Below, piece after piece: positions 773 through 26,877 of a stretch of 49,476 nt of DNA. Every line of letters starts with the position of its first letter. Position 1 is the stretch's first letter. The DNA is from Prevotella sp. (GTDB taxonomy: Bacteria; Bacteroidota; Bacteroidia; Bacteroidales; Bacteroidaceae). Both the position numbers and the translations under genes were made by a program. The notes beneath the pieces are model-generated. The model saw nothing but the letters and a program-made list of their open reading frames with translations, was not told the origin of the DNA and searched no databases. The DNA is taken from assembly GCA_017462915.1 (NCBI GenBank), contig JAFTQG010000023.1, forward strand, positions 1-49,476, read 5' to 3'.

Positions 773-1002
773 CCGCCAGGATATTATTTTTCCGCAAAGG
801 TAAACCGCCGCCTCCAAGCCTGCCAATGCCTGGCCATGCCGCGAGTGACTGCGGAAAATCTTCCTCTCCGCCGTCGAGCGTATTTTCCGCATCAGCCTTG
901 TCCGTTTGTCGCCGCCACCTTTTGGGAAGCAGAAAAATAAATCCCACGGTCACAGAAAGACCGAAATGAGGGAAGAAAAAAAAATCAAACAAGGTTAAAT
1001 AT
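773..1002 (+). ncRNA. Structured leader L1 of the methylase-helicase gene
   Basis: First of six related leaders. It opens with GCAAAGGTAA (794-803), then has a perfect 10-bp stem TGCGGAAAAT/ATTTTCCGCA (850-859/882-891) enclosing the conserved strings CTTCCTC and GAGCG. It closes with ATCCC (941-945), hairpin CGGTC/GACCG (947-951/959-963) and GAGGGAAGAAAA just before the start codon. The other leaders keep the loop strings while the stem bases change in pairs, which is the basis for calling this RNA structure. Whether it is a cis-regulatory leader, a processed RNA or a ribosome-binding aid is unknown. Confidence 0.55.
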
Positions 1003-4000
1003 ATGAGTTACAACAAACAGAAATCACTCGTGGCAAACGTGGAAGCCATAGAGACAGCGATGAAAGTCAAGGTACAGGGGCGACGTGCCACGGACAAGGA
1101 GAAAGAGACGCTTTCCTTGTATTCGGGCTTTGGCGGTATCAAAGAAGTGCTTAACATGGGTACAGACAAACCCATTGCGGAAGACATGGCAGAGCCTATC
1201 GGCAAGCTGCAAAGGCTGATAGACGAATATCCGTATTTTTCGGACGCAATGCGCAAGCAGGTAGTATCAAGCATCAAAGCATCGGTGCTGACCGCTTTCT
1301 ATACACCGCAGTTTATCATTGACGCAGTGGCGCAGCAGATACATAAAGTGTTTGCTGAAAACGGCTTGACCATGCGCTCATTCTTAGAGCCGAGTGCCGG
1401 CATTGGCGGTTTTCTGCCAGTAGCCATGTCCGGCACCGATACCCACGCTTTCGAGAAAGATTATATTACAGGACTTATTCTCTCTGTCCTGCATGACGAA
1501 GCGCTGACCTATACGGCAGGTTTTGAGACCATAGACAGGGAAATCACGGAAAACCGTACCTTTGATGTCATTGCCTCAAACATTCCATTCGGCAACTTCC
1601 GTGTGTTCGATGCTGAAATGTGGAAAAAGGGCGGCATCTACGAACAGGCGACCAAGACCATACACAACTATTTCTTTGTAAAGTCCATGGAACTGCTGAA
1701 CGAAGGCGGTTTGCTGGCTTTCGTCACTTCAAGGGGAGTAGCCGACACACCGGGCAACAAATTCGTGCGTGAGTATCTTGTGCGTCATGCCAATCTCATA
1801 ACCGCATTACGTCTGCCTGACACGCTTTTCATGCAGACGGGCGGCATAGAGGTGGGCAGTGACCTGCTTGTCTTTCAGAAGAACACACATAAGAGCGCAC
1901 TTTCGGGACGTGAGCAGGCTTTTCTTCAAGTCAGCAAGGAAATGGTGGATATGTCGGGAAAGACCACCGAATATGCAAACAGACTCTTCACCCTGCCAAA
2001 GACCACGCTTGCCACAGGCAGCCGCATCGCTATGAACCAATACGGCAAATACGTGCGCAAATACCTGTGGGAGAGCAGCGAGGTCTCCATGTTCAAATAT
2101 CTGTCCGGAATGTTGCAGGGAGACTTTGAGCGGTATTTCAGAAAAGGCATACTTGCCAACGGCGGCAGTCAGCCCATGCAGATGTCACTCTTCGGAGATA
2201 TGGACTGCGACATGGACGTTGCAAGGCAAAGGGGAAAGCGTGCCTACACCGATGATACGGAGGACTGGATGAAAAGCGGTGCTTTGGTGATATTCGAGGG
2301 ACAGGTCGGCACGTTGCAGTACAGGAAGTCAAGCCATTATACCGCAACGGCAGTTGACTTTATGCCTGTTGATGACGGCAAGGTGAACATCGAGAGGGCA
2401 ATGGACTATTTCCCAATCCGTAAGACCTATTTTGAACTCTCAAACATAGAAAGAGAGGAACAGAGGGAGGAAAAAGCATTGAGGGAACAACTTAACAGGG
2501 AGTATGATGCCTTTGTCAGTAAATGGGGATTTTTCCATGATAACGACAACAGGGAGTTTATCATGCTTGACAGCCTCGGTGTGGAGGTGTTCACCATTGA
2601 AATGCAGGTCGGCACGGACATATTCAAGGCTGACATCATGCGTGAGCCGGTCGCATTTCAGAAAGATGCAGCAGAAAAGATACAGACTTCCACGGAAGCC
2701 TTGCTGAGCAGCCTTAATTATTACGGAGGTGTGAACATGACCTACATCGTCCAGTCAACAGGCAAGAGCGAGGACGATATAGCCGCAGAACTCAAAGGCG
2801 AGATATTCTATAATCCAACTGTCAGCAGATGGGAGCACAAAGGCATGTTCCTTGCAGGGAACGTGATAGCCAAGAGCAAAGAGATAGTTTCCAGCATCGC
2901 CAACTTGGACGGTAAGGAAAAGGTGTATGCGGAAGAGGCATTAAAAGCACTGGAGGACGTATGTCCCGAACCTGTGCCATACGAGGAGCTTGAAATCAAC
3001 ATGGGCGAGCGGTGGATAGACACACAGCTTTATGCCGCATTCGCATCAGAACTCTTTGATGTGGAAACAAGCGTGATGTACTTCGATGTGAACGACACCT
3101 ACCTTGTTCGCTTGCAGGGATATTCCCCAATCGCATATAACACCTATTCCGTGCGCAGCTACAACGGTGAAGACCTGTTTGTGTTCGCACTTCAAGACAC
3201 CGTGCCCGAAATAACCAAGGAGATTTACCGTGGCGGTGAAAAGGTGCGTGTGCCCGATGAAGAAGCAATACAGGAGGCAGCCACCAAGATACAGGAAATC
3301 CGCAGCAAGTTCAACACATGGCTTGACAACAGACCGATAGCGGAGCGTGACGAGCTTGTACGGGTATATAATGAGCGGTTCAACTGCTATGTTCGTTCTC
3401 ACTATGACGGTTCGGCACAGACATTCCCCGGACTGTCCTTTGAGCAGTTCCCCTACAATGACCTGTATCCGTCACAGAAAGATGCCATTTGGATGATTAA
3501 GCAACTTGGCGGCGGTATCTGCTGGCATGAGGTGGGAACAGGCAAGACCATGATAATGTGTGCAGGGGCGTATGAAATGAAGCGGCTCGGACTGGTTCAG
3601 AAACCGATGATAATAGGACTGAAAGCCAACGTGCATGAGATAGCCGACACATTCCGCAAGGCATACCCCACGGCAAAGGTGCTATATCCCGGCAAGGAGG
3701 ACTTCACACCAGCCAACCGCAAGGAGGTGTTCTCAAAGATAAAAAACAACAACTGGGATTGTATAATTATGACACATGACCAGTTCTCAAAGATACCGCA
3801 GTCGGAGGAGACGATGATTGAGATATTCACAGAGGAGCTTGCCGATGTGGAGCGCAGTCTTGAAGTGCTGGAGAAAAGCACCATGCGTTACCGCAGCGGG
3901 AAAATGCAAAAGGGGCTTGAACAGAGGAAGCAGAACCTTACAGCCAAACTTGCCGAACTCCGCTTGAAGATTGAGAGCCGTAAGGACGATACTGTGAATT

Positions 4001-6003
4001 TTCATTCTATGGGAATAGACCACATATTTATAGACGAATGCCATCTTTTTAAGAACCTAATGTTTCAGACCAGGCACACAAGGGTTGCAGGTATCGGAAA
4101 CACACGCGGCTCACAAAGGGCAATGAACATGCTGTTTGCCATTCGTGACATTCAGAACCGCAACGGCAGAGACCTTGGCGCAACATTCCTGTCGGGAACG
4201 GTAGTTGTGAACGCACTGACCGAGCTGTATGTGATGTTCAAGTATCTGCGTCCAAGGGAACTGCAGAGACAGCAGATAAGCTGCTTTGACGCATGGGCAG
4301 CAATATTCACGAAGAAAACAGCAGACTACGAGCTGAACGTGACAGGCGCAATCAAGAGAAAAGAGCGTTTCCGCACTTATATCAAAGTACCGGAACTGGC
4401 TATGTTCCTGCGTGAAATCACAGATTACAGAACCGCCGACATGATAAACCTTGACGTGCCGGATAAGAATGTGCGTTTCCTCTCACACGCTCCCACCATT
4501 GCACAGGAGGAAATGATAGGACGGCTTGTCTCCTTTGCCAACAGCGGACAATGGGAGGACTTGGGGCTTGACACGCCCGAACCTGACAACCTCGACAAGG
4601 CAAAGATGCTCATTGCCACCAATGTGGCACGCAAGATGGCTCTTGACATGCGCCTGTTGGGTGACAAGTTCACTGACGATGCGAACAACAAGGCATCGAT
4701 ATGCGCAAGGACAATCCATGACTATTATGTGCGCTCCAATGCCAACCGTGGCACGCAGTTCGTGTTCAGCGACCTTTCAACATACAAGCCCGGCGAGTGG
4801 AACATCTACAGTGACATCAAGGACAAGCTGGTGCGGTTGGGTATTCCGGCTGACGAGATACAGTTTATCCAGTGCGCCAAGACCGAGAGGGCAAGAAAGC
4901 GGCTTTTTGAGGACATGAACAATGGAAAGGTAAGGGTGCTTTTCGGCTCTACTACCATGTTAGGCACAGGAGTGAACGCACAGAAAAGAGCCGTTGCGGT
5001 GCATCACCTTGAAATACCCTGGCGACCTGCCGACATGGAGCAGCGCAACGGAAGAGCCGTAAGAAAGGGCAACACCGTGAAGCTGTGGGGCGGCAATGTT
5101 GTGGACGTAGTAATCTACGGCACGGAAAAGACGCTTGACGCTTACAAGTTCAATCTCTTAAAGAACAAGCAAATGTTCATCAACCAGATAAACAACGGCA
5201 CGATAGCCGTGCGCCGTATCGACGAGGACAGCATGGACGAGGACAGCGGAATGAACTTTGCAGAGTTCGTGGCTATACTTTCCGGCAATACAGACCTGCT
5301 GAACAAGGCGAAGCTCGACAACAAAATCATGCAGCTGGAGAAAGAGCAGGCAATATTCAAGAAGAGCCACATAAAGGCGGAGCGGAAGATTGCCGCAAAC
5401 AGGCAGGAGATAGAGAAAGCAAGCCGCACGGCAGAGCGCATGAGGCAGGATTTGGAATATATCAGCTCATATAACGGTGAAGCCGTGACACTGTTGTTGA
5501 ATATGCAACAGGCTACGGCAGAGGAAACAGGACGTGAGCTGCACCGCATATCAAAGACTTACCGCAGCGGTGTATATGAGACCATAGGCAGCTACATGGG
5601 ATTGAACCTTTTGGTGCACAGCGAGACCAATCTCACGGGCTTGTTCGACCATAATTCGTTCTTCGTGGAGGGCATAAGCGGACTGAAATACCGTTACGGT
5701 TTATCCGGCGCACTGCCATTGGGCTTTGTTGAGTCCGCTCAATATCCAAGGATTACGCTTGAAAAGCTGCCTGTACTCATGAAAGAACAGCAGAACCGCA
5801 TCGGGAAATTGGAAAGCGAGTTGCCGACATTGCAGGAAATTGTCAGCAGAGAGTGGGACAAGGCGGACGAGCTGGCAAGGCTCACACTGGAATGCAAGGA
5901 GCTGCAAAGGAAGATTGAGGCGGATTTGAACAAGACGGAACAGCAGCCCGAAACAAGTTCTGAGCCGGAAACGGAAATTAAAGCCACAGAAAAGGTGGCA
6001 TGA
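1003..6003 (+). CDS. DarB-like N6-adenine methylase / SNF2-type helicase fusion
   Basis: This 1666-residue protein is probably an antirestriction or DNA-processing factor carried by mobile elements. The N-terminal half holds an N6-adenine methyltransferase-like domain: SAM-binding motif FLEPSAGIGGF near residues 128-138 and a catalytic-type motif SNIPFG near 192-197, where classical enzymes have NPPY/F. The C-terminal half is a superfamily 2 helicase: Walker A VGTGKT near 842, DECH box near 1012, and motif VI QRNGRAVRKG near 1347, followed by a charged coiled-coil tail. The same layout is known from phage P1 DarB, which protects incoming DNA from type I restriction, and from large plasmid proteins of Firmicutes and Bacteroidota. 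The start ATG follows the purine-rich end of leader L1. A terminator follows, so it appears monocistronic. The NIPFG substitution leaves methylation activity uncertain. Confidence 0.9.
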   Translation: MSYNKQKSLVANVEAIETAMKVKVQGRRATDKEKETLSLYSGFGGIKEVLNMGTDKPIAEDMAEPIGKLQRLIDEYPYFSDAMRKQVVSSIKASVLTAFYTPQFIIDAVAQQIHKVFAENGLTMRSFLEPSAGIGGFLPVAMSGTDTHAFEKDYITGLILSVLHDEALTYTAGFETIDREITENRTFDVIASNIPFGNFRVFDAEMWKKGGIYEQATKTIHNYFFVKSMELLNEGGLLAFVTSRGVADTPGNKFVREYLVRHANLITALRLPDTLFMQTGGIEVGSDLLVFQKNTHKSALSGREQAFLQVSKEMVDMSGKTTEYANRLFTLPKTTLATGSRIAMNQYGKYVRKYLWESSEVSMFKYLSGMLQGDFERYFRKGILANGGSQPMQMSLFGDMDCDMDVARQRGKRAYTDDTEDWMKSGALVIFEGQVGTLQYRKSSHYTATAVDFMPVDDGKVNIERAMDYFPIRKTYFELSNIEREEQREEKALREQLNREYDAFVSKWGFFHDNDNREFIMLDSLGVEVFTIEMQVGTDIFKADIMREPVAFQKDAAEKIQTSTEALLSSLNYYGGVNMTYIVQSTGKSEDDIAAELKGEIFYNPTVSRWEHKGMFLAGNVIAKSKEIVSSIANLDGKEKVYAEEALKALEDVCPEPVPYEELEINMGERWIDTQLYAAFASELFDVETSVMYFDVNDTYLVRLQGYSPIAYNTYSVRSYNGEDLFVFALQDTVPEITKEIYRGGEKVRVPDEEAIQEAATKIQEIRSKFNTWLDNRPIAERDELVRVYNERFNCYVRSHYDGSAQTFPGLSFEQFPYNDLYPSQKDAIWMIKQLGGGICWHEVGTGKTMIMCAGAYEMKRLGLVQKPMIIGLKANVHEIADTFRKAYPTAKVLYPGKEDFTPANRKEVFSKIKNNNWDCIIMTHDQFSKIPQSEETMIEIFTEELADVERSLEVLEKSTMRYRSGKMQKGLEQRKQNLTAKLAELRLKIESRKDDTVNFHSMGIDHIFIDECHLFKNLMFQTRHTRVAGIGNTRGSQRAMNMLFAIRDIQNRNGRDLGATFLSGTVVVNALTELYVMFKYLRPRELQRQQISCFDAWAAIFTKKTADYELNVTGAIKRKERFRTYIKVPELAMFLREITDYRTADMINLDVPDKNVRFLSHAPTIAQEEMIGRLVSFANSGQWEDLGLDTPEPDNLDKAKMLIATNVARKMALDMRLLGDKFTDDANNKASICARTIHDYYVRSNANRGTQFVFSDLSTYKPGEWNIYSDIKDKLVRLGIPADEIQFIQCAKTERARKRLFEDMNNGKVRVLFGSTTMLGTGVNAQKRAVAVHHLEIPWRPADMEQRNGRAVRKGNTVKLWGGNVVDVVIYGTEKTLDAYKFNLLKNKQMFINQINNGTIAVRRIDEDSMDEDSGMNFAEFVAILSGNTDLLNKAKLDNKIMQLEKEQAIFKKSHIKAERKIAANRQEIEKASRTAERMRQDLEYISSYNGEAVTLLLNMQQATAEETGRELHRISKTYRSGVYETIGSYMGLNLLVHSETNLTGLFDHNSFFVEGISGLKYRYGLSGALPLGFVESAQYPRITLEKLPVLMKEQQNRIGKLESELPTLQEIVSREWDKADELARLTLECKELQRKIEADLNKTEQQPETSSEPETEIKATEKVA

Positions 6004-6024: not shown

Positions 6025-6067
6025 TCTCCCTCTGTTTGGTTGTGATAACCAGACAAGGGGATTTTCT
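6025..6067 (+). terminator. Intrinsic terminator of methylase-helicase gene
   Basis: The stem TGTTTGGTT/AACCAGACA (one G-U pair), extended by CCC/GGG, is followed by ATTTTCTTT. It lies 20 to 60 bases after the stop of the large + strand gene. The interval from here to the end of the convergent Abi gene (6068-6253) shows no convincing gene. Confidence 0.65.
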
Positions 6068-6253
6068 TTACACATGCAAAATGTCCGCATGAAACGTGGA
6101 AAGGATTGTAACGAACCTCACTTTTATACTTTTTATCCGGTCCTTACGGACAATCTCTTTTATGGCTTGACATCTGTCCTGCGTTTACCTTTTATACATC
6201 CTGCTTTCTACTATTTCAGAGAAAAGCCTTTTGCAAACCATCGCAGACGGCTT

Positions 6254-7183
6254 TTACCTCCATATTGGATCGTCCTTCCAATTTCCGATAAAGCCAAGCC
6301 TTTGATAAGGAATGTTCTGATTGGCACTTATCAGTTCAAGAATCTTATTCTTTATTTTATTGTCGGGGCAGACAGCATTGCAGAGATACAGCATAGCCAC
6401 GATGAAGCCGTATGGTCTGTTCTTTTGATTTTCTGTCAATGGTGAGTTTAGCCATTTGTCACGTAAGCCTCTTGGATTGGTTACTTTCTTTCCAAGCGTC
6501 CTGTTCCATAGTCTGGAATGGTGCGCCACGATGTTACGCATCAGAGAAATTGCCTCAAGCCAGCCTGTAAGGTCTTTTGCTGAGTAAAGCCCAAAATCGT
6601 TGGCTATTGCGGAACGCTGCGGAAGCTGCGACTTAAGGTTTTTGTACATCTTGGAAAGAGTACCGAATGTTGCCACCTCTATTATTCTCCACGCATCCGG
6701 ATTGTCACCGTCAAAAGACTCCTCATCCCAACTGGGATGACTGTCTATATATTCTTTGGCAAAAGGCTCCGTACTTCTTCCAAATTCATATTTTAAGTCG
6801 TAAACGAAATCTTCATGGTAATCACTGTTCTCAAAAAGAGAGGAGTCCAAATACCATAATCCATTACCTGCGGCTTGCGACATGTGGTTAATCACCTTTG
6901 AACGCAATGCCACTTCTATTATTTCTATTGCGTCAAAAAGAATAAGGCGCAGCTGATGGTCGAAATCATACCGCCGGATAACATCACTGAAGGTGGTTCC
7001 TTCAATGAAATCTCCATCTGTATCCGCATCCAGCAAGTCTCTCCAATAATATTTCAGACGGAAATAGCTGATACGTGAGAAACACTCCTTTGCCTCACGC
7101 TCTTCATCATCTGAGAAATTCATGCCCTTGTCACGAAGCAAGCGAATCTGTTCCTCTATATTACGCGGTTTCTGATTTTCCAT
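6254..7183 (-). CDS. Abi_2 / AbiD-AbiF family abortive-infection protein (HEPN)
   Basis: This 309-residue protein matches the Abi_2 family (AbiD/AbiF type), which causes abortive infection against phages and is thought to act as a HEPN-type RNase. The N-terminal family signature (RNIEEQIRLLRDKGM, then FSRISYFRLKYYW) is clear. The HEPN-like catalytic motif R-N-x3-H is visible as RNIVAHH at residues 216-222, followed by SRLWNR. The ATG at 7183 is preceded by a short structured leader that ends in an intrinsic-terminator-like hairpin, with a consensus Bacteroidota promoter upstream of that. The gene stands alone on the - strand between two + strand transcription units. This arrangement resembles AbiF loci, where a structured RNA sits upstream of the gene and may act as an RNA antitoxin. 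Family assignment is confident; the RNA-antitoxin role is inference. Confidence 0.9.
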   Translation of the reverse strand: MENQKPRNIEEQIRLLRDKGMNFSDDEEREAKECFSRISYFRLKYYWRDLLDADTDGDFIEGTTFSDVIRRYDFDHQLRLILFDAIEIIEVALRSKVINHMSQAAGNGLWYLDSSLFENSDYHEDFVYDLKYEFGRSTEPFAKEYIDSHPSWDEESFDGDNPDAWRIIEVATFGTLSKMYKNLKSQLPQRSAIANDFGLYSAKDLTGWLEAISLMRNIVAHHSRLWNRTLGKKVTNPRGLRDKWLNSPLTENQKNRPYGFIVAMLYLCNAVCPDNKIKNKILELISANQNIPYQRLGFIGNWKDDPIWR

Positions 7184-7499: not shown

Positions 7500-7710
7500 G
7501 GATGCAAAGGTCTGTCAGCGCCGCATGATGCCGACGGCTTGAAGTGCATTTCCTGCAAATTCTTCCTCCATGCAGAGTGTAATTGGCAGGAAAAACCGCC
7601 GCATGATGCTGTTCAGATGACCGTGTGTGGGCATCCGTAAAATCTCTGGCGGCAGGAACAAAGCCGAAAACAGGGAAAACAAAAAGTTTCACAAAAAAAC
7701 GGTTTACACA
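7500..7710 (+). ncRNA. Structured leader L2
   Basis: Second member of the leader family. GCAAAGG opens at 7504. The main stem is TTCCTGCAAATT/AATTGGCAGGAA (7550-7561/7581-7592, one mismatch) enclosing CTTCCTCC and CAGAGTGT, the same loop strings as L1 and L4 on different stem bases. The 3' block is divergent (GGC...GCC hairpin, then CAGGGAAAACAAAAA) and ends before ATG 7711. It is the least conserved of the six at its 3' end. Confidence 0.5.
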
Positions 7711-8112
7711 ATGACAAGGAAAAGGAACAAGACCTACAAGTTTATCGAAAAACTGATAGACAAGGTTACGACAAGCGAGAGCAACAACATGAATTTTACC
7801 TGTTACGGGCATTTGGTAGAGCTGCAAAGCGGCACGGAGGACTATGTTTCCGTGGCGATATACAATACTGATGACCGCTACAAGGGTGAAATGGCAGATT
7901 TCGACTTCGACTATCTGACAAAGGAACTTCATTTTGTCTTTTCTGAAAGCAAGGCACTTACGGACAAGATAATCAGTACATTTGCGGCTCTCTATCACAG
8001 GCGGCATATCCGTGTCTCATACGATGAGCAAGAATATGAAGATGAGGACACGACGTATGAGTACGACGAGACGGACGAGAATACCCTGCCTGTAAAACAT
8101 TTGAACAAATAA
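7711..8112 (+). CDS. Hypothetical acidic protein
   Basis: Unrecognised 133-residue protein with a basic N-terminus (MTRKRNKTYK) and a strongly acidic C-terminus (EYEDEDTTYEYDETDE). I start it at ATG 7711 rather than the upstream GTG at 7627, because the upstream 84 bases belong to leader L2 and encode low-complexity sequence. No signal peptide or membrane segment is visible. It is followed 18 bases later by another small gene, so the two are probably co-transcribed. Confidence 0.65.
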   Translation: MTRKRNKTYKFIEKLIDKVTTSESNNMNFTCYGHLVELQSGTEDYVSVAIYNTDDRYKGEMADFDFDYLTKELHFVFSESKALTDKIISTFAALYHRRHIRVSYDEQEYEDEDTTYEYDETDENTLPVKHLNK

Positions 8113-8130
8113 AACCATAAATTTTGAGTT

Positions 8131-8418
8131 ATGACATTCAATTACAACAAAGAGGAAAAGACACCGATGTCACTGGTGCTTGAAAATGGAGTTTCTGTAA
8201 AAGGCGAGTTCATCGACCTTAGAATTGCGGTTGATACACTGCCGCCAAACAAGGAATGGTATCAAATCCGACATTCTGATGATGACGGAAGCGAACCAGC
8301 CTCACTGAAAAGAGGATGTGTCATCGTGAACTTTTTCGGCACATTCATCTGTGACCCAATTAAGGAAATCACAGACGGTGAAGAGATTAATATATCGGAA
8401 TGGACTTTTGAAGACTGA
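8131..8418 (+). CDS. Small protein, LPD28-like
   Basis: This 95-residue soluble protein has the core LENGVSVKGEFIDLR...WYQIRHSDDD...VNFFGTFI. From memory it resembles the LPD28 large-polyvalent-protein-associated domain, a small domain found in Bacteroidota mobile elements. That is a tentative match. It follows the 7711 gene by 18 bases, in the same operon. Beyond its stop there is no further coding sequence until 9617. Confidence 0.65.
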   Translation: MTFNYNKEEKTPMSLVLENGVSVKGEFIDLRIAVDTLPPNKEWYQIRHSDDDGSEPASLKRGCVIVNFFGTFICDPIKEITDGEEINISEWTFED

Positions 8419-9352: not shown

Positions 9353-9399
9353 TGTATTGATTACATGGATATTCTTCCAATCAGCACTGTGACAGGCAT

Positions 9400-9616
9400 A
9401 TTTCCTGCAAAATTAGCCGCTATGAGACAATCGTCAAATTCTGCTTGAGGTCCCGGACTGTGAACAATCTTCCTTTTCCACGGAAAAGAGTATTCTTCAC
9501 ACATAATTTGTCTGTTTGTCTTTTCTGGCGGCTTTGTGGAGCAGAAAATATCCCTCCACAGGCTGAAAGGTCTCGAAAGGAGGGAAAGAAAAAATGTATC
9601 ACTTAAAAATAAGGAA
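9400..9616 (+). ncRNA. Structured leader L3
   Basis: Third leader of the family. The main stem GTGAACAAT/ATTCTTCAC (9460-9468/9492-9500, one mismatch) encloses CTTCC and GAGTATT. The closing block has AAAATATCCCTCC (about 9545-9557), a small inner hairpin, then GGAGGG (9579-9584) and AAAGAAAAAA before the start codon at 9617. Confidence 0.5.
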
Positions 9617-10168
9617 ATGAAGATTATCATCCTGCATGATGCTGACGCACGCATCGAGTTTCTTGACGTAGCCGACCACCTTATCGGCTCTGACATCGAG
9701 GAGTTCCTCACCAGAAAGGGCTTCTCTGTGAATAACATTACATGGCTTGCCGCTTCCACAGACAGTGTGCCTGTGGTTTATCACAAGTTCGACATCGACC
9801 GAAAGACCGGCGAGGCGAACCACACCAAACGAGAGGCGGAACTGAAAGACCTAACCATCCACGGACAGCTTCAGGAGTTGAAATGCCGTGAGCAGGACGA
9901 GCTGAAATCAGCTCTCCGCAAATATGGTGAAGAGGTTGACGGTGGCTTTGAGGTGCATTTTGAGGGAGAACGCCCCATTGTGGCTGGTTATCTCTTTGAC
10001 GAGCCTTGCGATATTGTCATTGATGCCGCACGGGTGGATGCCGACGGCAACCTGTCCCTACTCGGTGAGGACAAGCAAGACCGTGGCGAGCAATACGGAA
10101 TAGAGCCAAGCGACATATTTGGCGGTCAGTTGGACTATGTTACGTCAAACATTAGGGCATGGAGATAG
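9617..10168 (+). CDS. Hypothetical protein
   Basis: Unrecognised 183-residue acidic soluble protein beginning MKIIILHDADARIEFLDVAD. I choose ATG 9617 because the preceding bases are leader L3; an in-frame start at 9536 would place coding sequence across the conserved GGAGGGAAAGAAAA block. It begins a run of three small genes (next at 10181 and 10462) that includes SSB, so a role linked to DNA metabolism of the element is possible but not shown. Confidence 0.65.
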   Translation: MKIIILHDADARIEFLDVADHLIGSDIEEFLTRKGFSVNNITWLAASTDSVPVVYHKFDIDRKTGEANHTKREAELKDLTIHGQLQELKCREQDELKSALRKYGEEVDGGFEVHFEGERPIVAGYLFDEPCDIVIDAARVDADGNLSLLGEDKQDRGEQYGIEPSDIFGGQLDYVTSNIRAWR

Positions 10169-10180
10169 GAGGAAACAGAT

Positions 10181-10411
10181 ATGACACAGTGCATCGTATA
10201 TGACGAGACAACCAAGGAGAGCGAGACCTTTTGCGCCTTGACCGCAGCCAAGAAATGGATGCGAGAGCGTATGAAACAGGGGCACAAGGTCAGCGGACAG
10301 AAATACAAAGTCTATGCGGACGGTGATTTCGTGAATTGTGGCTCTATCAGTCTCACAGGCAGCAATAAGTCATTTGTCGCCAACACAAGGCAGACGAAAA
10401 AAGGATATTGA
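10181..10411 (+). CDS. Hypothetical small basic protein
   Basis: Unrecognised 76-residue protein, lysine-rich, with no membrane segment. It begins 12 bases after the previous stop, with GGAGG a few bases before the ATG, one of the few good Shine-Dalgarno-like sequences here. It is probably co-transcribed with the genes on either side. Confidence 0.6.
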   Translation: MTQCIVYDETTKESETFCALTAAKKWMRERMKQGHKVSGQKYKVYADGDFVNCGSISLTGSNKSFVANTRQTKKGY

Positions 10412-10461
10412 AAACAAGGTAACGGCAAGCACAACCAACTTGCCACCAACAACATCGCATT

Positions 10462-10884
10462 ATGATTTACATTCACACTATCGGACGTATCGGCAAGGAC
10501 AGTCGTGTCATCACAGGAACACATGGAACATTCATGGCTGTTGACATCGCCGTGGACGACTACAGTAAGGGAAAAAATTTCACCACTTGGGTAAGGGTGA
10601 AGAGCAGCAAGGAGAACCATATCCGCCTGGCAGAATACCTCACAAAGGGACGCATGGTGCTTGTGGAGGGTACGCTTACATCTTCCATTTGGACAGACCG
10701 CAACGGCGATAGCCATATTCAGCACAGTATCATTGCTGACTCTATCGCCTTTGTCAATGTCGGCAAGAAGGAAGCAACCGACAGTACGTCTGCACAGGCA
10801 CGAAAGGCAGTCAATGCCGAGGGCAGCACTCCCGAACCGCCAGCCGATGCACCGCAGGACAAGAGTGAGGACCTGCCCTTCTGA
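10462..10884 (+). CDS. ssb: Single-stranded DNA-binding protein
   Basis: This 140-residue SSB binds single-stranded DNA during replication, repair and conjugative transfer. It has the OB-fold sequence expected at the N-terminus (IHTIGRIGKDSRV, TWVRVKSSKENH, YLTKGRMVLVEGTL), a disordered linker and the acidic C-terminal tip EDLPF that recruits partner proteins in this family. It is the last gene of the 9617-10884 run and is followed by a terminator-like palindrome. An element-borne SSB would cover the transferred strand after conjugation. Confidence 0.92.
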   Translation: MIYIHTIGRIGKDSRVITGTHGTFMAVDIAVDDYSKGKNFTTWVRVKSSKENHIRLAEYLTKGRMVLVEGTLTSSIWTDRNGDSHIQHSIIADSIAFVNVGKKEATDSTSAQARKAVNAEGSTPEPPADAPQDKSEDLPF

Positions 10885-11002: not shown

Positions 11003-11130
11003 TTATATGTACCAGGTGCGTAAGGCTGTTATATTCCAAACAAGTCTCCGTTTATATCGCTTCGCCCCACACCGTCCCGCCCTTTACACCTATTTTTATA
11101 ATAATACTGTAGATTGTTTCTCATCAGCCT
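11003..11130 (+). repeat. Partial third copy of the U element
   Basis: CACTTTTATATGTACC and CGCTTCGCCCCACACC line up with the 5' portions of U1 and U2 (CTTTTATATGCAGC, TGCTACGCCCCACACC in U2). The inner stems are missing, so this looks like a shortened or decayed relative. It lies directly before leader L4, as U2 lies before L3. Confidence 0.4.
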
Positions 11131-11139
11131 TGCCGCGCG

Positions 11140-11338
11140 GATATTGTTTTGCAAAGGTAAAGCCGGCGGTTTTTCAAACGGCCAAATCGTCTTTGCAGGA
11201 AATCTTCCTCTGACAGGCAGAGCGTATTTCCTGCTGTCAATTTGCCTTATTGACCGCCATCATTCTGATTAAAGCAAAAAAATATCCCTCGGACAGGCTG
11301 AGAATCAGCAAAAAGAGGGAAGAAAATACATCAGAGAT
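11140..11338 (+). ncRNA. Structured leader L4
   Basis: Fourth leader. GCAAAGGTAAAG opens at 11151. The main stem GCAGGAAAT/ATTTCCTGC (11195-11203/11226-11234) is perfect and encloses CTTCCTCTG and CAGAGCGT. The closing block is CCCTC (11286-11290), inner hairpin GCTGA/TCAGC, GAGGG (11315-11319), then AAGAAAA before the start codon. Together with L1 it is the clearest member of the family. Confidence 0.55.
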
Positions 11339-11905
11339 ATGGTAAAGACAATAGACATTGAACTTCAAAGACAACTTGACAAGCCACAGACATGGTTCTG
11401 CAAGTATTACCCTGCACGCATACGCAACGTGGGAGAAAAAGAGATTTCCGACCGACAATTAGTGTTCGACTTCAAAGATGGAAGAGCATACGAGGAAGTG
11501 GCACAGCGCACAGCAGAGAACATGCTGGCACTTTACGGCAAGGGTTGTGTGAACATCGTTTTTGTTCCTGTACCGGCATCCACAAGTGAGAGCAATGAGC
11601 TTCGCTACAAGGCTTTCTGTCATAGGGTATGTGAACTGACTGGAGCGGAGAATGGCTACGAACACGTAAGAGTTTGCGGAGAGAGGAAGACTATCCATGA
11701 CAACCGCAAGGCTGAGGAAGAAGTACGTAAGGTCAATACGGTTAAGTTTGATGAACCTTTCTTTGACAACAAGATGGTGCTGGTCTTTGACGATGTGATA
11801 ACCAAAGGGGTAAGCTATGCGAAATACGCCACCCAACTTGAAAGCCTTGGGGCGTGTGTCATTGGTGGAATGTTTCTCGCACGTACACATTATAAAGTAA
11901 GGTAA
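11339..11905 (+). CDS. Phosphoribosyltransferase-like protein
   Basis: This 188-residue protein has a phosphoribosyltransferase fold signature: a PRPP-binding loop VLVFDDVITKG near residues 146-156, preceded by a beta strand and followed by a small-residue helix, as in type I PRTases and ComF-like proteins. Earlier, FVPVPASTS supplies the usual preceding strand and loop. Its substrate cannot be told. It is separated by only 3 bases from the SLOG-family gene at 11909, so the two are surely co-expressed, and the pair carries leader L4. PRTase-plus-SLOG pairs may make or sense nucleotide-derived ligands, for example in DNA uptake or defence; that is inference. Confidence 0.75.
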   Translation: MVKTIDIELQRQLDKPQTWFCKYYPARIRNVGEKEISDRQLVFDFKDGRAYEEVAQRTAENMLALYGKGCVNIVFVPVPASTSESNELRYKAFCHRVCELTGAENGYEHVRVCGERKTIHDNRKAEEEVRKVNTVKFDEPFFDNKMVLVFDDVITKGVSYAKYATQLESLGACVIGGMFLARTHYKVR

Positions 11906-11908
11906 GAT

Positions 11909-12400
11909 ATGACAAAGTATGACAAGGCTGTGTCCGTATGTTTCAGCGGACACCGCGACGTGCCTTTCGGCAAACAGAAGGAACTGAAACAACATCTGAG
12001 ATTTGAAATAGCCAAGGCATACGCTGACGGCTACCGATGTTTCTATTGTGGCATGGTAATGGGATTTGACCTGCTGGCGGCAGAAGCCGCCCTCTCGTTA
12101 CAAAGCGAGTTGAAGGACTTGCAGGTGATAGCCGTTGTGCCGTTCCGTGGTCAGTCTGACAGATGGAGCAAGGAAGCGCAAGCCAAGTATGGTGCCATCC
12201 TACGTATCGTGGATGACGTTGTCGTATTGAGCGAGCGGTACTTCAACGGTTGCCTTCTAAAGCGTAACGACTATATGGTAAACCACAGTTCACGGCTCAT
12301 TGCCTATCATGATGGCACTGACAAGGGCGGTACGTTCTACACTGTCAAGAAAGCCGGACAAAACGGGCTGGAAGTGGTGAACCTGCATAATAGTGTATAA
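11909..12400 (+). CDS. SLOG-family protein (DUF1273/YpsA-like)
   Basis: This 163-residue protein shows the SLOG/YpsA layout, a Rossmann-like fold related to DprA and LOG proteins: CFSGHRD near the start, then YCGMVMGFDLLAAEAAL, VVPFRGQSDRW, and a final glycine- and threonine-rich segment AYHDGTDKGGTFYTV. SLOG proteins bind or process nucleotide ligands, and several act in stress or anti-phage signalling. It is the second gene of the PRTase-SLOG pair. A very small membrane protein follows after 22 bases. Confidence 0.8.
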   Translation: MTKYDKAVSVCFSGHRDVPFGKQKELKQHLRFEIAKAYADGYRCFYCGMVMGFDLLAAEAALSLQSELKDLQVIAVVPFRGQSDRWSKEAQAKYGAILRIVDDVVVLSERYFNGCLLKRNDYMVNHSSRLIAYHDGTDKGGTFYTVKKAGQNGLEVVNLHNSV

Positions 12401-13453: not shown

Positions 13454-13456
13454 TGT

Positions 13457-14212: not shown

Positions 14213-14227
14213 AGGATGTGAATTACA

Positions 14228-15561: not shown

Positions 15562-15571
15562 AACTTATCTG

Positions 15572-16306: not shown

Positions 16307-16318
16307 GCTGTTACATTT

Positions 16319-19858: not shown

Positions 19859-19937
19859 GTATCACCTGTATCGTGCCGGTTCTGTTGTACAATGGCCCCG
19901 GCAATAAAAATAGTATTCACCAAACAGATTACCCAAA

Positions 19938-20822
19938 ATGAAGAAACAGAAAAATAGAACGTGTTCCGGCAGGATGTCCGAACAGATGGCATTGCTGGAG
20001 TTCCTGAAAGAGCGGTCCGGGGGACGGCAGTCAAAACTTGAGGCCTATCTTGACCTTGTGGACAAGGCTTCCGTACAGTATATTCCCAAGGACTTGTGTA
20101 GGCAGGAGTTCACCTTGTCGGACGGGCAATTCGTTATCACCATTACCGAACTTGCCGAGTGCTGGCATTGGCATCGTGCCACTGTCCGCACATTTATCGA
20201 GCAGCTGGAGAAGATGGGACAGATAGCTGTCACCCGTCTTACGAAGAGCCAGATAATCACCATACCTTCATTGGCTGAGGCTCCTGCCGCTTCTCCGATT
20301 GACACCGCCATGGCTGAGTTCCGTCATAAGATGCGTACCGCATTGGACGGATGGCGGAACGGCAATCTATCCGCTTCCGCCTGTGCCTCGGAATGTGAGA
20401 ATCTCTATGAGCAAGCCACGGAAGACATTGCCGCAGTCTTGCATAATATTGATAATGGCAATGCACCCGGCAAAGTGCCATGCGGAGGCAGTATTCCCGA
20501 ATCTGTTGAGCGTGCCCTTTGCATGACCGCACTGTCCGCTGTCATCGAAACGACCTTCCATCAGGTTCTCGGACAAGGTACGGAACAGTCCAAAGCTACC
20601 TCTCTTCTTTCCTTCTTTTATAAAGACCTGGGCGGAGAATGGATCTCGTTCATAGAGGCGGCGAAAGCAATCTCCGAGCTGGCTTTAGATGGCAATTCAC
20701 CTGCCTTGCTGCAGGAAAGCGCAGCCGTCAAGTCGCAGTTCCAGTTGCTTTGCAGGCCGTTCCTCGCCGTTATAGCTAACTGGGAGGTTCCCGTACTGTC
20801 TAAAGAGAGTTCCAACCTCTAA
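19938..20822 (+). CDS. Winged-helix-like DNA-binding protein upstream of relaxase
   Basis: Residues about 60-115 of this 294-residue protein (FTLSDGQFVITITELAECWHWHRATVRTFIEQLEKMGQIAVTR) look like a winged helix-turn-helix of the type used in replication initiators and mobilisation regulators. The rest is helical and unrecognised. It sits directly before the candidate oriT and relaxase gene, a usual place for an accessory protein that binds oriT or controls the relaxase. The function is inferred from position and the HTH. Confidence 0.6.
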   Translation: MKKQKNRTCSGRMSEQMALLEFLKERSGGRQSKLEAYLDLVDKASVQYIPKDLCRQEFTLSDGQFVITITELAECWHWHRATVRTFIEQLEKMGQIAVTRLTKSQIITIPSLAEAPAASPIDTAMAEFRHKMRTALDGWRNGNLSASACASECENLYEQATEDIAAVLHNIDNGNAPGKVPCGGSIPESVERALCMTALSAVIETTFHQVLGQGTEQSKATSLLSFFYKDLGGEWISFIEAAKAISELALDGNSPALLQESAAVKSQFQLLCRPFLAVIANWEVPVLSKESSNL

Positions 20823-20966: not shown

Positions 20967-21030
20967 AGGCTGTCCGAGCAAGCAGCAAGCTGGGGACAGA
21001 GGAGTTGTGTACATAAAAAGATTAAAGGAT

Positions 21031-22482
21031 ATGGCATCAGCAAAACAGGTAATGGATTTCCGCCCGTCAAAGGGAATTACCACCGCACAGAGCAACGAGC
21101 ACCAGCGCCGCTGGACGGAAAATGGCTGGCAATCGGCAGTAGCGCAGGGCAACTACGACCGTAGCCGTGAACGGCTCAACTTCGAGATTCGTAACGGCAA
21201 GGTCTGTCCCGTTGACAAGAGCCGCAGCATCCCGGAACGCATGTCTGAGATTCTGCGGGACCGTGGAATCAAAGACCCTAACGAAGGACTGGAAGAGCCA
21301 CGCTTCCGCACTGTGGCCAATTTCATCTTCGGTGGCTCACGCGAACGAATGACAGAACTGGCATTTGGCGACCAGAAGGTGGATCTGACACACGGAGCGG
21401 ACAATTCACATCTTCACCGTTGTAAGGATATTGAGGATTGGGCAAAGGATGTTTACCGCTTTGTTGCGGATAAATATGGTGAGGAGAATATCGTGGCTTT
21501 CATTGCACATCTGGACGAAACCAATCCGCACGTCCACTGCACCCTCTTGCCAATCAAAGACGGCAGGTTTGCGTACAAGCAGATATTTGCCGGCAAGGAC
21601 AAATATGAATTTTCTGCCAGGATGAAAGCCCTGCACAGTGAGTTCGCGGAGGTAAACCAGCGTTGGGGCATGGAACGTGGCACTTCCGTTTCAGAGACTG
21701 GCGCACGTCACCGCACCACCGAAGAATACCGCCGCCAACTGTCAGAGCAGTGTACTACCATTGAGCAGACTATCACCGCACATCAGCGGACACTCGTATC
21801 GCTCCAGTCGGACATCCGTCTGGCAGAGCGGAGAGTAAAAGGTCTCACTTCTATGGTGGGCAACCTCTTGCAGGAGAAAGCGGAGAAGGAGGCGGCACTT
21901 GCCGAACTGCACAGGCAGATTCTTGCGGGTCACGACAATCCTGATGCACTCCGTCAGCAAGTCAACCAACTGGAGAAGGAACTTTCCTCTATCCGGACGA
22001 AACTGGACGACAAGCAGGAGAAACTCTCCGAGGCTGACCGCAAGCTCGACGCTCTGCGTGAGGAGATGACAGCCATACAGGAACGCACGGAAGAACTGCG
22101 GCAGGAGGCATACAAATACTCCGGTACTATCCAGAAGGGTGCGGACATCCTGCTGAAGAATGCCCTCTTGGAAAACATGGTCAGCGAGTTCTCTGAACGT
22201 GCGGCACAGCTTTCCGACGAGGGAAAGAACGTGTTTGACGGTTCACTGCTGCAGGCCTTTGCGGAGAATGGCACGGAGGTGATGTACTGTGCCACGCTTC
22301 TCTTCCTCGGCTATGTCGATGATGCCACCACCTTTGCCGAAGGGCATGGCGGCGGAGGCAGTTCGTCCGACCTCAAATGGGGACGTGACGATGACGAGGA
22401 TGAACGTGCGTGGGCTCGCCGCTGTATGATGAAAGCAGCACGCATGATGTGTCCCTCTTCCGGCAAAAAGAAGAAGCGGTAA
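21031..22482 (+). CDS. MobV-family relaxase (Mob/Pre)
   Basis: This 484-residue relaxase nicks DNA at oriT and pilots the transferred strand. The N-terminal part carries the family motifs: SNEHQRRWTENG near the start, and the metal-binding HxDExxPHxH site as AHLDETNPHVHCTLLPI, followed by KYEFSARMKALHSEF. The C-terminal half is a long coiled coil (about residues 250-400). ATG 21031 is chosen; an in-frame GTG at 21007 is less likely. It is preceded by the candidate oriT and followed by an OmpA-like gene. Confidence 0.92.
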   Translation: MASAKQVMDFRPSKGITTAQSNEHQRRWTENGWQSAVAQGNYDRSRERLNFEIRNGKVCPVDKSRSIPERMSEILRDRGIKDPNEGLEEPRFRTVANFIFGGSRERMTELAFGDQKVDLTHGADNSHLHRCKDIEDWAKDVYRFVADKYGEENIVAFIAHLDETNPHVHCTLLPIKDGRFAYKQIFAGKDKYEFSARMKALHSEFAEVNQRWGMERGTSVSETGARHRTTEEYRRQLSEQCTTIEQTITAHQRTLVSLQSDIRLAERRVKGLTSMVGNLLQEKAEKEAALAELHRQILAGHDNPDALRQQVNQLEKELSSIRTKLDDKQEKLSEADRKLDALREEMTAIQERTEELRQEAYKYSGTIQKGADILLKNALLENMVSEFSERAAQLSDEGKNVFDGSLLQAFAENGTEVMYCATLLFLGYVDDATTFAEGHGGGGSSSDLKWGRDDDEDERAWARRCMMKAARMMCPSSGKKKKR

Positions 22483-24236: not shown

Positions 24237-24356
24237 CAAGTTGTACTTCCAAATTGATGTTTCATCGAACCGTTTAACTCGGTTATTTCTATAAACTTAC
24301 CGAATCTCCAATTCTAAAAGACATCTTTATATTCCACTTGTCGGCATCCATTTTTC

Positions 24357-24686
24357 TTTGCAAAGTTACTGCTTGGGCGATAATGTCAAGTACCGCCCTG
24401 CTAACAGGTGCCGGATTTAACAACAGCTTTCCACGAATGGACGGAGCAGCGAGGGCATAGCCAAACTTGTTCGGGCTTTGCCGAGTCGTGACGGATATGG
24501 GCGAAGCCAATGTGCCATTAGTGGTATTTCATTAAATCCCATGCCTGTTTCCTTGCCCTATCACCCTTGTTGCGCAGTCTTTTGATGCACGAAAAATCAG
24601 TTCCCGACAAGAGGAGCTAAAAGGCTTCAAAAAGAGGGAAGAAAAATAAAACTTAACATTCAAACATCAAAACATAAATAACAATT
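24357..24686 (+). ncRNA. Structured leader L5 (carries REP insertion)
   Basis: Fifth leader, a close relative of L6 (26644-26877). The shared strings are TGCAAAG-TACTGC, GTCAAGTACCGC, GCTAACA, CAGCTTTCCACGAATG, CCATTAGTGGTATTTCATTAA and GCAGTCTT. It ends with TTCCC, a small AGC/GCT hairpin, GAGGGAAGAAAAA, then 30 A-rich bases before ATG 24687. A 73-bp REP-like insertion (24440-24512) sits inside the loop of the CCAC-AATG/CATT-GTGG hairpin. Confidence 0.55.
24440..24512 (+). mobile_element. REP-like element R4 inserted in leader L5
   Basis: Compared with the uninterrupted sister leader L6, this 73-bp segment is extra and is flanked by AATG on both sides (24436-24439 and 24509-24512). The inner part GAGCAGCGAGGGCATAGCC...TGCCGAGTCGTGACGG matches the other REP-like copies. 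This is direct evidence that the element moves or moved, with a 4-bp duplication. Confidence 0.6.
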
Positions 24687-25124
24687 ATGACAGGAACAGA
24701 ACATTTCAAGCAGGCGATTAAGGCTTATCTGGACGAGAGAGCCAAGACTGACGAACTCTTTGCGGTATCGTATGCCAAAGAAAACAAGAAATTGGACGAT
24801 TGCGTCACGTTCATTCTCACCCAAGCAAAAGCCATTGCCAAAGAGGGCGGTTGCGGTATGACCGATGACGAGGTTTATTCCCTTGCGACACACTACTATG
24901 ATGAAGACAACATCGAGGTTGGCAAGTTGGAAAACTGCGGAGTGATTGTCAACCACAGAGTGGAACTTTCCGAACAGGAGAAAGCCGAAGCGAGGGAAAG
25001 GGCGATAAAAGCGTATCAGGAGGAAGAACTGCGTAAAATCCAACAGCGTAACAGCAGACCGAAACCGACACCGAAAGCGGTAAAACAAGAAATATCACAA
25101 CCCTCACTATTTGACTTTGAATAA
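24687..25124 (+). CDS. PcfK-like protein
   Basis: This 145-residue protein resembles PcfK-like proteins, small partners always found beside PcfJ-like proteins in conjugative elements (the family is named after enterococcal plasmid pCF10 genes). The N-terminal HFKQAIKAYLDERAKTDELFAVSYAKENKKLDDC and the YxLATHYYDED segment are the recognisable parts; the C-terminus is lysine-rich and ends SLFDFE. Its stop overlaps the PcfJ-like start (TAATG), so the two are coupled. The molecular role is not established. Expression is headed by leader L5. Confidence 0.85.
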   Translation: MTGTEHFKQAIKAYLDERAKTDELFAVSYAKENKKLDDCVTFILTQAKAIAKEGGCGMTDDEVYSLATHYYDEDNIEVGKLENCGVIVNHRVELSEQEKAEARERAIKAYQEEELRKIQQRNSRPKPTPKAVKQEISQPSLFDFE

Positions 25125-26389
25125 TGAAAGCAAGGACAAGATTACAGCATAAGGTGGTAGCCGCCAATGAGCGGTTACAGCCACCGACAGAGAAACAGGA
25201 GTCATGGGCATTCCGTCACTGCGTCAGCCATTATGCGTTCCGTACAAAAAGCAGAGGTACAACGTGCATGGACTGCGGACACAAGTGGAATGAGGACGGC
25301 AAGAAGGAATGCCGTTGTCCTCATTGCGGTGCAAGATTGGAGATAAAGGACACAAACCGAAGAACATATAGGGAGAAAGAGTATTATTCCACTCTTACCA
25401 CACAAGACGGCTTGCAGGTACAGCGTGTGTTTCTTTTGACCGCAAATTTCCACAAGGGCAGAAAATCCGACAGCTATTCCATGGAAGTAGCCCGCTATTG
25501 GATTGACGATAACGGCAAGACAGAGGTGACGGCATTAAGACGTACTCTCGGATATTATATGGACTCTTTTGTCATGGACGGACGCTTGGAACTGCGGAGA
25601 GATAACCATGTTTACAGACATATTGCCGACTGTTATGTTTATCCTTATTATTCAGTCACCCCAAAACTGAAGCGTAACGGCATGAAAGGCTCACTGGCAG
25701 GTTTTGAACCGACACGGCTTATTGAAGCCCTGTTGACCGACAGCAGGGCAGAGACGATGTTCAAGGCAGGCAGAAAGACGGATTTGAAATATTTTCTGCA
25801 ACATCAGAGAGACTTTGATATGTATTGGAACACGTATAAGATAGCCCTGCGCAACGACTACCATATTTCTGACATCTCGCTTTGGGTGGATTATATCCGC
25901 TCACTTGAAAGGTGTGGCAAGGACATTCACAATGCCCATTATGTCTGCCCCTCCGACTTGGCAACCGAGCACGACCGCTATCAAGAGCGTGTAATGGTTA
26001 TCCGAGAGAGGGAGAAGCGTGAGGAGCAACGGAAAAAGGCAAGGGAAAACGAAAAGCGTTTCCGAGAGTTGAAAGGCAAGTTCTTCGGACTGACATTCAC
26101 TGACGGACTTATCGTCATCAGCGTGCTGGAGAGCGTGGACGAATATTATCAGGAAGGAAATGCCCTGCATCATTGTGTTGGGCAATGCGAATACTATCTG
26201 AGACCGCACTCACTGGTATTTTCCGCAAGAATAGGCAACAGGCGCATCGAGACCGTAGAGTTGAGCCTTGACACGTTCAAGGTACTGCAGTCAAGAGGGC
26301 TCTGCAACCAAAGCACGGAGTATCACGACCGCATCATCCGACTTGTACAGAAAAACGCACGGCAAATCCGCAAGCGTATGACTGCATAG
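25124..26389 (+). CDS. PcfJ-like protein
   Basis: This 421-residue protein belongs to the PcfJ-like family. An N-terminal zinc ribbon is visible (CMDCGHKWNEDGKKECRCPHCGARL, two CxxC pairs). The conserved C-terminal block ALHHCVGQ-CEYY followed by ..RIETVELSL carries the family's histidines and cysteine. A charged helical linker (REREKREEQRKKARENEKRF) separates the two. The ATG overlaps the PcfK-like stop. PcfJ proteins accompany conjugation genes; the biochemical activity is unknown. A terminator follows the stop. Confidence 0.87.
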   Translation: MKARTRLQHKVVAANERLQPPTEKQESWAFRHCVSHYAFRTKSRGTTCMDCGHKWNEDGKKECRCPHCGARLEIKDTNRRTYREKEYYSTLTTQDGLQVQRVFLLTANFHKGRKSDSYSMEVARYWIDDNGKTEVTALRRTLGYYMDSFVMDGRLELRRDNHVYRHIADCYVYPYYSVTPKLKRNGMKGSLAGFEPTRLIEALLTDSRAETMFKAGRKTDLKYFLQHQRDFDMYWNTYKIALRNDYHISDISLWVDYIRSLERCGKDIHNAHYVCPSDLATEHDRYQERVMVIREREKREEQRKKARENEKRFRELKGKFFGLTFTDGLIVISVLESVDEYYQEGNALHHCVGQCEYYLRPHSLVFSARIGNRRIETVELSLDTFKVLQSRGLCNQSTEYHDRIIRLVQKNARQIRKRMTA

Positions 26390-26409
26390 TCTGTCCTGCT
26401 CTTTCTTTT

Positions 26410-26449: not shown

Positions 26450-26454
26450 TGCGT

Positions 26455-26484: not shown

Positions 26485-26643
26485 AATCCCACATATACAT
26501 TTCTCATTTTCGTCATATATAAAATCCTAACATATGGAACAATCTCAGCAGGTACTCTTTTATATTATGTTTTCTCCTGTTCAGCTTTGAATGATATTCT
26601 CGTTTGTACCGACCATCACACTACACGGCATTGTTTTATTGTG

Positions 26644-26877
26644 CAAAGGTACTGCCTGGTGAGAACGTCAAGTACCGCTTGCGCTAACAATTCAGTGGAC
26701 TTAACGACAGCTTTCCACGAATGTACCATTAGTGGTATTTCATTAACTCTCTGTTTGTTTATTTGCCTTATCTCCCCTGTGCCGCAGTCTTGAACTGCAC
26801 ATAAAACATATCCCGGTGGTGAAGTCGTAAGGCTTCAAGCAAAGGGAAAAGAAAAATAATTCAAAAACGATAGAGAC
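26644..26877 (+). ncRNA. Structured leader L6
   Basis: Sixth leader and uninterrupted sister of L5. It has GTGCAAAGGTACTGC at its start, a CCAC-g-AATG/CATT-a-GTGG hairpin (about 26716-26736), a GCAGT/ACTGC hairpin, and the closing block ATCCC, hairpin TGAAG/CTTCA, AAAGGGAAAAGAAAAA. ATG 26878 follows after a short A-rich stretch. Confidence 0.55.

Follow-up and report, generated by a model that had tools for sequence, protein, structure and literature searches.

What is the function of the long, structured leaders that stand before several gene units of a Prevotella mobile element? The stretch of DNA analyzed here (the window) is one entire contig of 49,476 nucleotides (nt) from Prevotella sp. 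(JAFTQG010000023.1, assembly GCA_017462915.1; C56 of our genome G000). A preliminary description had placed six leaders, here L1 to L6, before the + strand genes at 1003, 7711, 9617, 11339, 24687, and 26878. Reading the sequence confirmed them there, with a GCAAAG-type string, long inverted repeats, and a CCC...GGGA closing hairpin common to all six. The description took them for copies of one RNA-based or protein-bound control element that would switch several units of the same mobile element together, for example on entry into a new cell. One control element before several units is what our results support, and entry is a likely trigger. A mainly RNA leader is not: the rod into which most of the leader folds has no G.U excess, the opposite strand folds better, and the opening string is a sigma factor -7 box of that opposite strand. 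The leaders instead belong to a real, widespread, DNA-structured promoter-like element, and we consider it probable that they are single-stranded-DNA (ssDNA) promoters for entry genes, working like the Frpo promoters of plasmid F but unrelated to them in sequence. This reading draws on a covarying tip, a DNA-like rod that leans to the complement of the gene strand, sigma boxes nearly fixed in place, a lack of sense promoters, and the content of the genes behind the rods.

The tip of L1 to L4 is built of paired arms, the string AAAT, an internal loop with CTTC opposite YGT, an inner stem, and a second arm. A search of 1.04 Mb, made up of the window and 50 loci (L001-L050) around relatives of the DarB-like gene at 1003, gave 78 instances of the tip pattern, CTTCCT..AGYGTA, on the + strand and none on the minus strand. 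Alignment A2 consists of 37 tips chosen by this pattern, with L3 added by hand. Pairing holds in 84.9% of its cells (67.5% in shuffles), both partners have changed in 109 cells (39 in shuffles), and the covariation score is 0.452 (0.161 in shuffles); sliding the arms by 1 to 3 columns lowers pairing to 38-53%. Two of five measures on A2, pairs with a double change and further pair types, are not above shuffles. A covariance model and a search of Bacteroidales genomes had been suggested in the preliminary description. The model built from A2, R1, scores L1 to L4, all four of them training members, at E values of 7e-14 to 3e-10, and it does not detect L5 or L6. It gives 75 matches in 41 of 393 sampled genomes of the order (E up to 0.01). 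Across the phylum, 4 of 395 genomes have matches at E up to 0.001, and 3 of these 4 are in the order.

All 139 R1 matches in the window and the 50 loci (E up to 1), a count that includes near-identical elements in several loci, lie on the strand of the DarB-like gene. The surroundings of 70 of the 75 order-wide matches, window included, were used further (G279, G135:C40, G010, G091, and G372:C2 were left out), and re-searching these regions with R1 gave 69 matches outside the window. The resulting 208 matches correspond to 159 distinct elements; 116 of these, 8 of which are weak matches (E > 0.001), stayed in the strand tests after near-duplicates and truncated elements were removed. Other tools for structured RNA found little. 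In Rfam 15, the window had no family at gathering score, positions 1-28500 gave one chance-level match (E 1.3), and 14 other loci gave only one tRNA. RNAalifold, run on 13 full L1-type leaders, returned 22 pairs, 1 of them changed on both sides, and did not recover the rod. Its pairing of the tip TTCCT with GGGAA of the closing block was dropped because those pairs show no covariation.

The rod is clearest in standalone copies (e.g., at loci L099, L105, and L110), where the arms pair over about 170 nt in the order base stem, internal loop holding the GCAAAG-type string, second stem, and a three-way tip formed by a small hairpin and the R1 hairpin. Minus-strand DNA of L1 to L6 folds into the same kind of rod, with A/T-rich pairing closing it near the base. 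Which strand, then, is the one that folds? With RNA parameters, the complement of the gene strand folds better in 101 of the 116 elements (mean -96.0 versus -85.1), and with DNA parameters the complement is better in 95 and the sense strand in 19. Control DNA lying 150-450 nt downstream shows no strand bias (+ better in 81, minus in 75). The excess of the complement beyond dinucleotide shuffles is 4.6 kcal and is present in 90/116 elements (p 3e-10), and z-scores favor the complement in 82/116. The folding strand, which is the template of the genes, is thus clear over the whole set and weak for single leaders of the window.

The kinds of base pair agree with this polarity. When consensus pairs are derived from folding with G.U disallowed (seven families, thinned to 97 sequences), rod cells comprise 3958 Watson-Crick, 101 G.T, 140 A.C, and 241 other combinations, and A.C exceeds G.T in five of the seven families. 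RNase P RNA of the same order, treated by the same rules (23 usable of 30 RNAs), gives 659 Watson-Crick, 43 G.T, 10 A.C, and 14 other, and its sense strand folds better in 23/23. From the G.T and A.C counts together with the strand energies, we therefore conclude that what is conserved in the rod is pairing of a DNA-like kind rather than a sense RNA structure, with a lean to the gene-complementary strand. Most of the leader does not look like an RNA leader; G.U tolerance and a better sense fold are absent from the rod, and by strand energies only the closing hairpin behaves as sense RNA. Simple counts of 1x1 mismatches (43 G.T, 112 A.C) were set aside as evidence because shuffled (37/63) and coding (44/72) controls lean likewise.

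A further sign of orientation lies in the opening string. GCAAAGGTA is the complement of TACCTTTGC, that is, of the TAnnTTTG type, and Bacteroides primary promoters are described as combining TAnnTTTG at -7 with a TTTG around -33, at a spacing that varies (PMC7366714). An earlier reading of GCAAAGGTA as a sense-strand transcript start was abandoned after TAnnTTTG was found on the complement. Over the 116 elements, exact TAnnTTTG is depleted on the sense strand (5, versus 20.1 in dinucleotide shuffles, minimum 13) and abundant on the complement (78, versus 25.1, maximum 34). The exact complement box lies 14-62 nt left of the tip in 51/116 elements; to the right of the tip, the complement has just 7 boxes. 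A relaxed box (a free base, A, two bases, TT, a pyrimidine, G) is present in 107/116 elements, against 7.6 expected after shuffling; in 52 it has the exact form. Of the 107, 55 have a TTG that begins 21-26 nt upstream of the box (7.3 expected), the relaxed form and the TTG range having been picked after inspection of these same elements. The -7 string tends to sit in a bubble of the rod: TAnnTTT is paired at 0.48, versus 0.63 for AT-matched 7-mers of the same arm (p 3e-6), the GC that follows it at 0.95, and positions -26 to -22 at 0.77 to 0.90. The predicted stem-loop of the single strand thus appears to hold host promoter boxes (TAnnTTTG/TTG), which would face into the gene when the template strand folds alone but away from it in the duplex.

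The closing hairpin behaves differently from the rod. Its CCC..GGGA pattern was found in 43 of the 116 elements, and in these its polarity is reversed relative to the rod: the + strand has the lower energy in 37/43, and the + lean goes beyond shuffles in 38/43 (p 8e-9). L3 and L4 follow this lean and L1 does not. In 35/43 the hairpin ends 10-54 nt before an ATG. Only this small hairpin has the polarity of sense RNA, and here the RNA-based structure of the preliminary description stands, while for the rod it does not. We propose that the polarity reverses because the closing hairpin alone is transcribed. A reversal of polarity at the predicted start is the best internal support for an ssDNA promoter.

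How might such a promoter work? The element would enter the recipient as the single strand complementary to these genes, and the leader on the entering strand would fold into the rod of about 170 nt with its branched tip. For the Bacteroidales primary sigma factor, the left arm would be the non-template strand, directed to the base, with TTG (-33) held in duplex and TAnnTTTG (-7) exposed in the internal loop. Strand polarity suggests the right arm as template, along which RNA polymerase would travel from the tip to the base and on into the gene, still on the entering strand. Transcription itself and its start position we infer: the mRNA would begin near the base of the right arm, its 5' end bearing the closing hairpin. 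Entry and anti-defense genes would be switched on together at entry, and would be on only then because the same boxes face away from the gene in duplex DNA. A version of this idea in which the Bacteroidales family evolved independently of Frpo is a tentative one, to which we give somewhat less than an even chance. It is a strand-state switch in which one pair of sigma boxes reads into the entry gene when single-stranded and away from it (antisense to the upstream unit) when duplex, the conserved CTTC/YGT tip being dedicated to binding a protein, of the host or of the element, whose action is confined to ssDNA.

The leaders of the window can be read in these terms, with rod limits approximate throughout and rods given for the minus strand, tips and closing hairpins for the + strand. 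The L1 rod (773..945; minus-strand DNA fold, alignment A1), before the DarB-like gene at 1003, has its -7 box TACCTTTG at 795..802 on the minus strand, with the complement of its TTG (-33) at 824-826. Its tip hairpin is at 844..898 (R1, 61.2 bits; like the other R1 scores here, that of a training sequence), and its closing hairpin CCC..GGG, the predicted mRNA 5' end, at 943..972 (by pattern), where both strands fold about equally. The L2 rod (7500..7660) has a tip hairpin at 7546..7597 (51.4 bits). The L3 rod (9380..9556) has its -7 box TAATTTTG at 9408-9415, the TTG complement at 9435-9437, a tip hairpin at 9453..9508 (47.5 bits), and a closing hairpin at 9552..9584 (pattern, strand energies). 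In the L4 rod (11115..11290), the -7 box TACCTTTG is at 11152-11159, the TTG complement at 11183-11185, the tip hairpin at 11188..11242 (49.9 bits), and the closing hairpin at 11286..11319 (pattern, strand energies); the transcript would start at about 11277-11281.

L5 and L6 share the kind of rod, the -7 string, and the closing hairpin with L1 to L4 but have a different tip. The common plan claimed for all six therefore holds for string, rod, and closing hairpin, and the covarying tip is confined to L1 to L4. The L5 rod spans 24340..24610, with -7 box TAACTTTG at 24361-24368 and TTG complement at 24387-24389; the L6 rod spans 26625..26815, with -7 box TACCTTTG at 26644-26651, TTG complement at 26670-26672, and a closing hairpin at 26812..26846 (by pattern). 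Between L5 and L6 there are two matching blocks (74% and 78%); beyond this mutual match no further match to the variant leaders was found in 198 genomes of the order. The closing pattern was recognized in L1 and L3 to L6 by pattern search and in L2 by eye. L3 had been singled out as the exception in the opening string, but its GCAAAATTA reads TAATTTTG on the other strand, which is a perfect TAnnTTTG; exact boxes occur in L1, L3, L4, L5, and L6, and the imperfect string is that of L2 (GACCTTTG, at 7505-7512 on the minus strand).

What do the rods precede? All six units of the window are on the + strand. The first is a DarB-like antirestriction N6-methylase/helicase of 1666 amino acids (aa) (1003..6003; phrog_10089 E 1e-265; Pfam), and the second (7711..8418) a 133-aa protein without a Pfam family, then an LPD28 protein. 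Unit 3 (9617..10884) runs from a 183-aa protein to SSB (10462-10884; Pfam E 8e-14), unit 4 (11339..12400) holds a 188-aa protein with a ShosT-like match (E 5e-14) and a YpsA/SLOG protein, unit 5 (24687..26389) PcfK and PcfJ, and unit 6 (26878..27129) an 83-aa protein (phrog_11458). The products had been called unrelated, which is not simply so: the rods precede a DarB-like gene, an operon with SSB, PcfK/PcfJ, and, elsewhere, ArdA. SSB lies directly behind a rod in L002 and later within its unit in the window; ArdA lies behind rods in L094 (E 3e-35) and L124 (E 2e-30), and three more sequences cluster with these. By gene content, DarB-like proteins, ArdA, and SSB count as establishment or anti-defense genes; further rod genes encode LPD28, a MOBV relaxase (L106), DUF4313, and several proteins of no family, and many others are without a known family. 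Proteins like that of unit 6, judged by eye, follow rods with an R1 tip in L004, L007, and L010.

The proposed mechanism depends on which strand is transferred, and relaxase genes bear on this. The window has a MOBV-type relaxase gene (Mob_Pre; 21007..22482, + strand; PF01076 E 8e-14), with the origin of transfer (oriT) expected just upstream. The genes preceding it occupy 18985-20822, with a very weak MarR-like match at 19938-20822, and the predicted place of oriT is the interval from there to 21007. A PF01076 or PF03432 relaxase lies within 25 kb of 38 of the 75 rods, on the same strand for 31 (downstream for 27); within 5 kb, the relaxase is on the rod gene strand in 16/16 cases and downstream in 13. 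These counts take rods of one element separately and so are not independent, and the scan did not include G010 and G091. In the proposed mechanism, the complementary strand would be the transferred one. Elsewhere, loci L097, L098, L099, L100, L101, and L103 have standalone rods 2.3-2.5 kb before a relaxase gene with no clear gene nearby; these loci resemble mobilizable elements, and their rods may be second-strand origins. Some other standalone rods face, by eye, the reverse of excisionase-like (L092) or integrase-like (L118) genes.

Several observations weigh against an ssDNA promoter on the complementary strand. Within 25 kb, 7/38 relaxases are on the opposite strand and 4/38 on the same strand but upstream, and L5 and L6 lie downstream of the relaxase gene. 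MOBV relaxases MobM and MobSag are described as nicking the relaxase coding strand (PMC5863519, PMC5090054); if the window's MOBV relaxase nicks like these, the transferred strand would be the other one. Our literature search gave no report on the strand nicked by Bacteroides relaxases. Composition accounts, by dinucleotide shuffles, for 6.2 of the 10.8 kcal of the raw strand gap. In the window polarity is weak: the complement is better in 4/6 leaders (RNA parameters), and the z-scores of L2 and L4 favor the sense strand. G.T exceeds A.C in two small rod families (7/1 and 6/3), 9/116 elements are without even a relaxed -7 box and only 52 of the other 107 have an exact one, and the closing pattern was detected in only 43/116.

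Could the rods serve DNA synthesis rather than expression? As single-strand origins (sso/ssi), the folded strand would recruit RNA polymerase mainly to make a second-strand primer, with gene expression secondary or absent. Standalone rods 2-3 kb before a relaxase gene fit this by position, and 23 of the 159 elements have no open reading frame (ORF) of at least 60 aa within 420 nt, a few of them because the stretch ends too soon. Frpo of F, going by the title of its study, is reportedly both promoter and priming site. But 136/159 elements do have such an ORF (some spurious), the closing hairpin, where found, has mRNA polarity and mostly (35/43) ends 10-54 nt before an ATG, and rods recur unit after unit within one element, where a single sso would suffice. 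We regard a mainly priming role as unlikely, though deserving of some weight.

A structured mRNA leader, whether riboregulator or protein-binding RNA, as the preliminary description proposed, would account for the tip covariation, the place before the ATG, and the mRNA polarity of the closing hairpin, yet it seems highly improbable, given that G.U is not in excess, the complement folds better, sense promoters are depleted, the sigma box in the left arm faces the other way, and Rfam has no gathering-score match in the window. The DNA-like pairing also led us to drop, without tests of their own, a self-cleaving RNA, an attenuator, and an antitermination leader of the NusG type. The boxes might also belong to an ordinary duplex promoter on the complement that makes an antisense or divergent RNA, the inverted repeats being an operator or a small RNA; TAnnTTTG and TTG do stand on the complement in normal order and spacing. 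Such a transcript would begin past the left arm. The rod would then stay untranscribed, and covariation between its arms would serve no purpose. The transcript would be antisense to the + strand ORFs upstream of L1 (4-525) and of L4 (SSB, 10462-10884). Only 7 complement -7 boxes lie right of the tip, and A.C:G.T is 1.4 in the rods, versus 4.3 for own wobble in real RNA. This, too, we judge very unlikely.

An ssDNA promoter has precedents, for such promoters are established for enterobacterial plasmids. As described for Frpo/ssi of F and ColIb-P9, the folded transferred strand rebuilds promoter boxes; there are several copies, they precede ssb and establishment genes, and they are off in duplex form (PMC9849209). 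The rods here are likewise predicted to rebuild promoter boxes and occur in several copies before SSB and establishment genes. They differ in their boxes, which are TTG/TAnnTTTG (Bacteroides primary sigma) and not TTGACA/TATAAT, and in their conserved Y-shaped tip with the CTTC/YGT loop. Sequence homology to F Frpo was not found: 20/116 rods match at 14-31 nt, a chance size, the best match having E 0.001 over 116 queries, and the matches are scattered over an 18-kb stretch of F. As a control, run without window choice and with shuffles on four gaps, we compared strand polarity in F, given the strand that we take to be transferred. The gap before ssb (0/40 shuffles reach it) and the gap at 63.1-64.0 kb (0/16) lean to the transferred-strand side beyond shuffles, a third leading-region gap leans weakly (6/40), and the fourth gap, outside, has the opposite lean predicted by its composition (32/40). 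The comparison is limited to polarity because the -35/-10 boxes of F were not found by eye in these gaps. Rods and relaxase gene mostly share a strand, as F leading and tra genes do, with the F oriT presumably between the two.

Other known systems are less close. The sso of rolling-circle plasmids and of ICEBs1 is described as orientation-specific folded ssDNA, in some cases recruiting RNA polymerase (PMC4595007). The rods are likewise predicted to be orientation-specific folded ssDNA, but they are repeated before gene units and followed by a hairpin and an ATG. The ssoA loop motif, which we take to be TAGCGA/T, is found in 12/116 rods. With the structured leaders of Rfam, the rods share a covarying structure before genes, but the window has no match at gathering score and the rod pairing is DNA-like. 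Two surveys of ssDNA promoters are described as having used known Frpo sequences and boxes of the E. coli type for their searches (PMC11541004, PMC12826799), and neither main text contains the stem "bacteroid". In the literature searched, judged mostly by titles and the starts of abstracts, with few subscription papers and no bioRxiv preprints, we found no report of ssDNA promoters in Bacteroidota.

The surroundings of the rods hold further features. An Abi_2 abortive-infection gene (6254-7183, minus strand) lies opposite, between units 1 and 2. A minus-strand gene block, perhaps inserted cargo, stands between unit 4 and the relaxase region (12962-16942); YaaA (13457-14212) and a resolvase (16319-16942) were identified in it, and its dehydrogenase-like and HNH-like genes are guesses by eye. 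At 32669-35179 (minus strand), a single long frame carries ArdC-N, a zincin metallopeptidase, and MutS domain I. At a contig end of the same genome (L142; G000:C19) there is a second copy, 88% identical, of the beginning of the 4-525 gene (window 1-370), with its own rod upstream (R1 match 6040-6098) and a frame that stops early at 73 codons. One rod precedes a gene for HsdR, the R subunit of a type I restriction system (L113:2970-5939, minus strand), an odd gene to activate at entry.

Comparing G.T with A.C counts and folding energies on both strands may help separate ssDNA elements from RNA leaders elsewhere. If these leaders are ssDNA promoters, R1 together with a complement TAnnTTTG would be a searchable signature that marks entry and anti-defense genes. 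It would also predict the transferred strand of many elements, and zygotic induction in Bacteroides would become directly testable. The conjugative and mobilizable elements of Bacteroidales spread resistance and much else in the gut.

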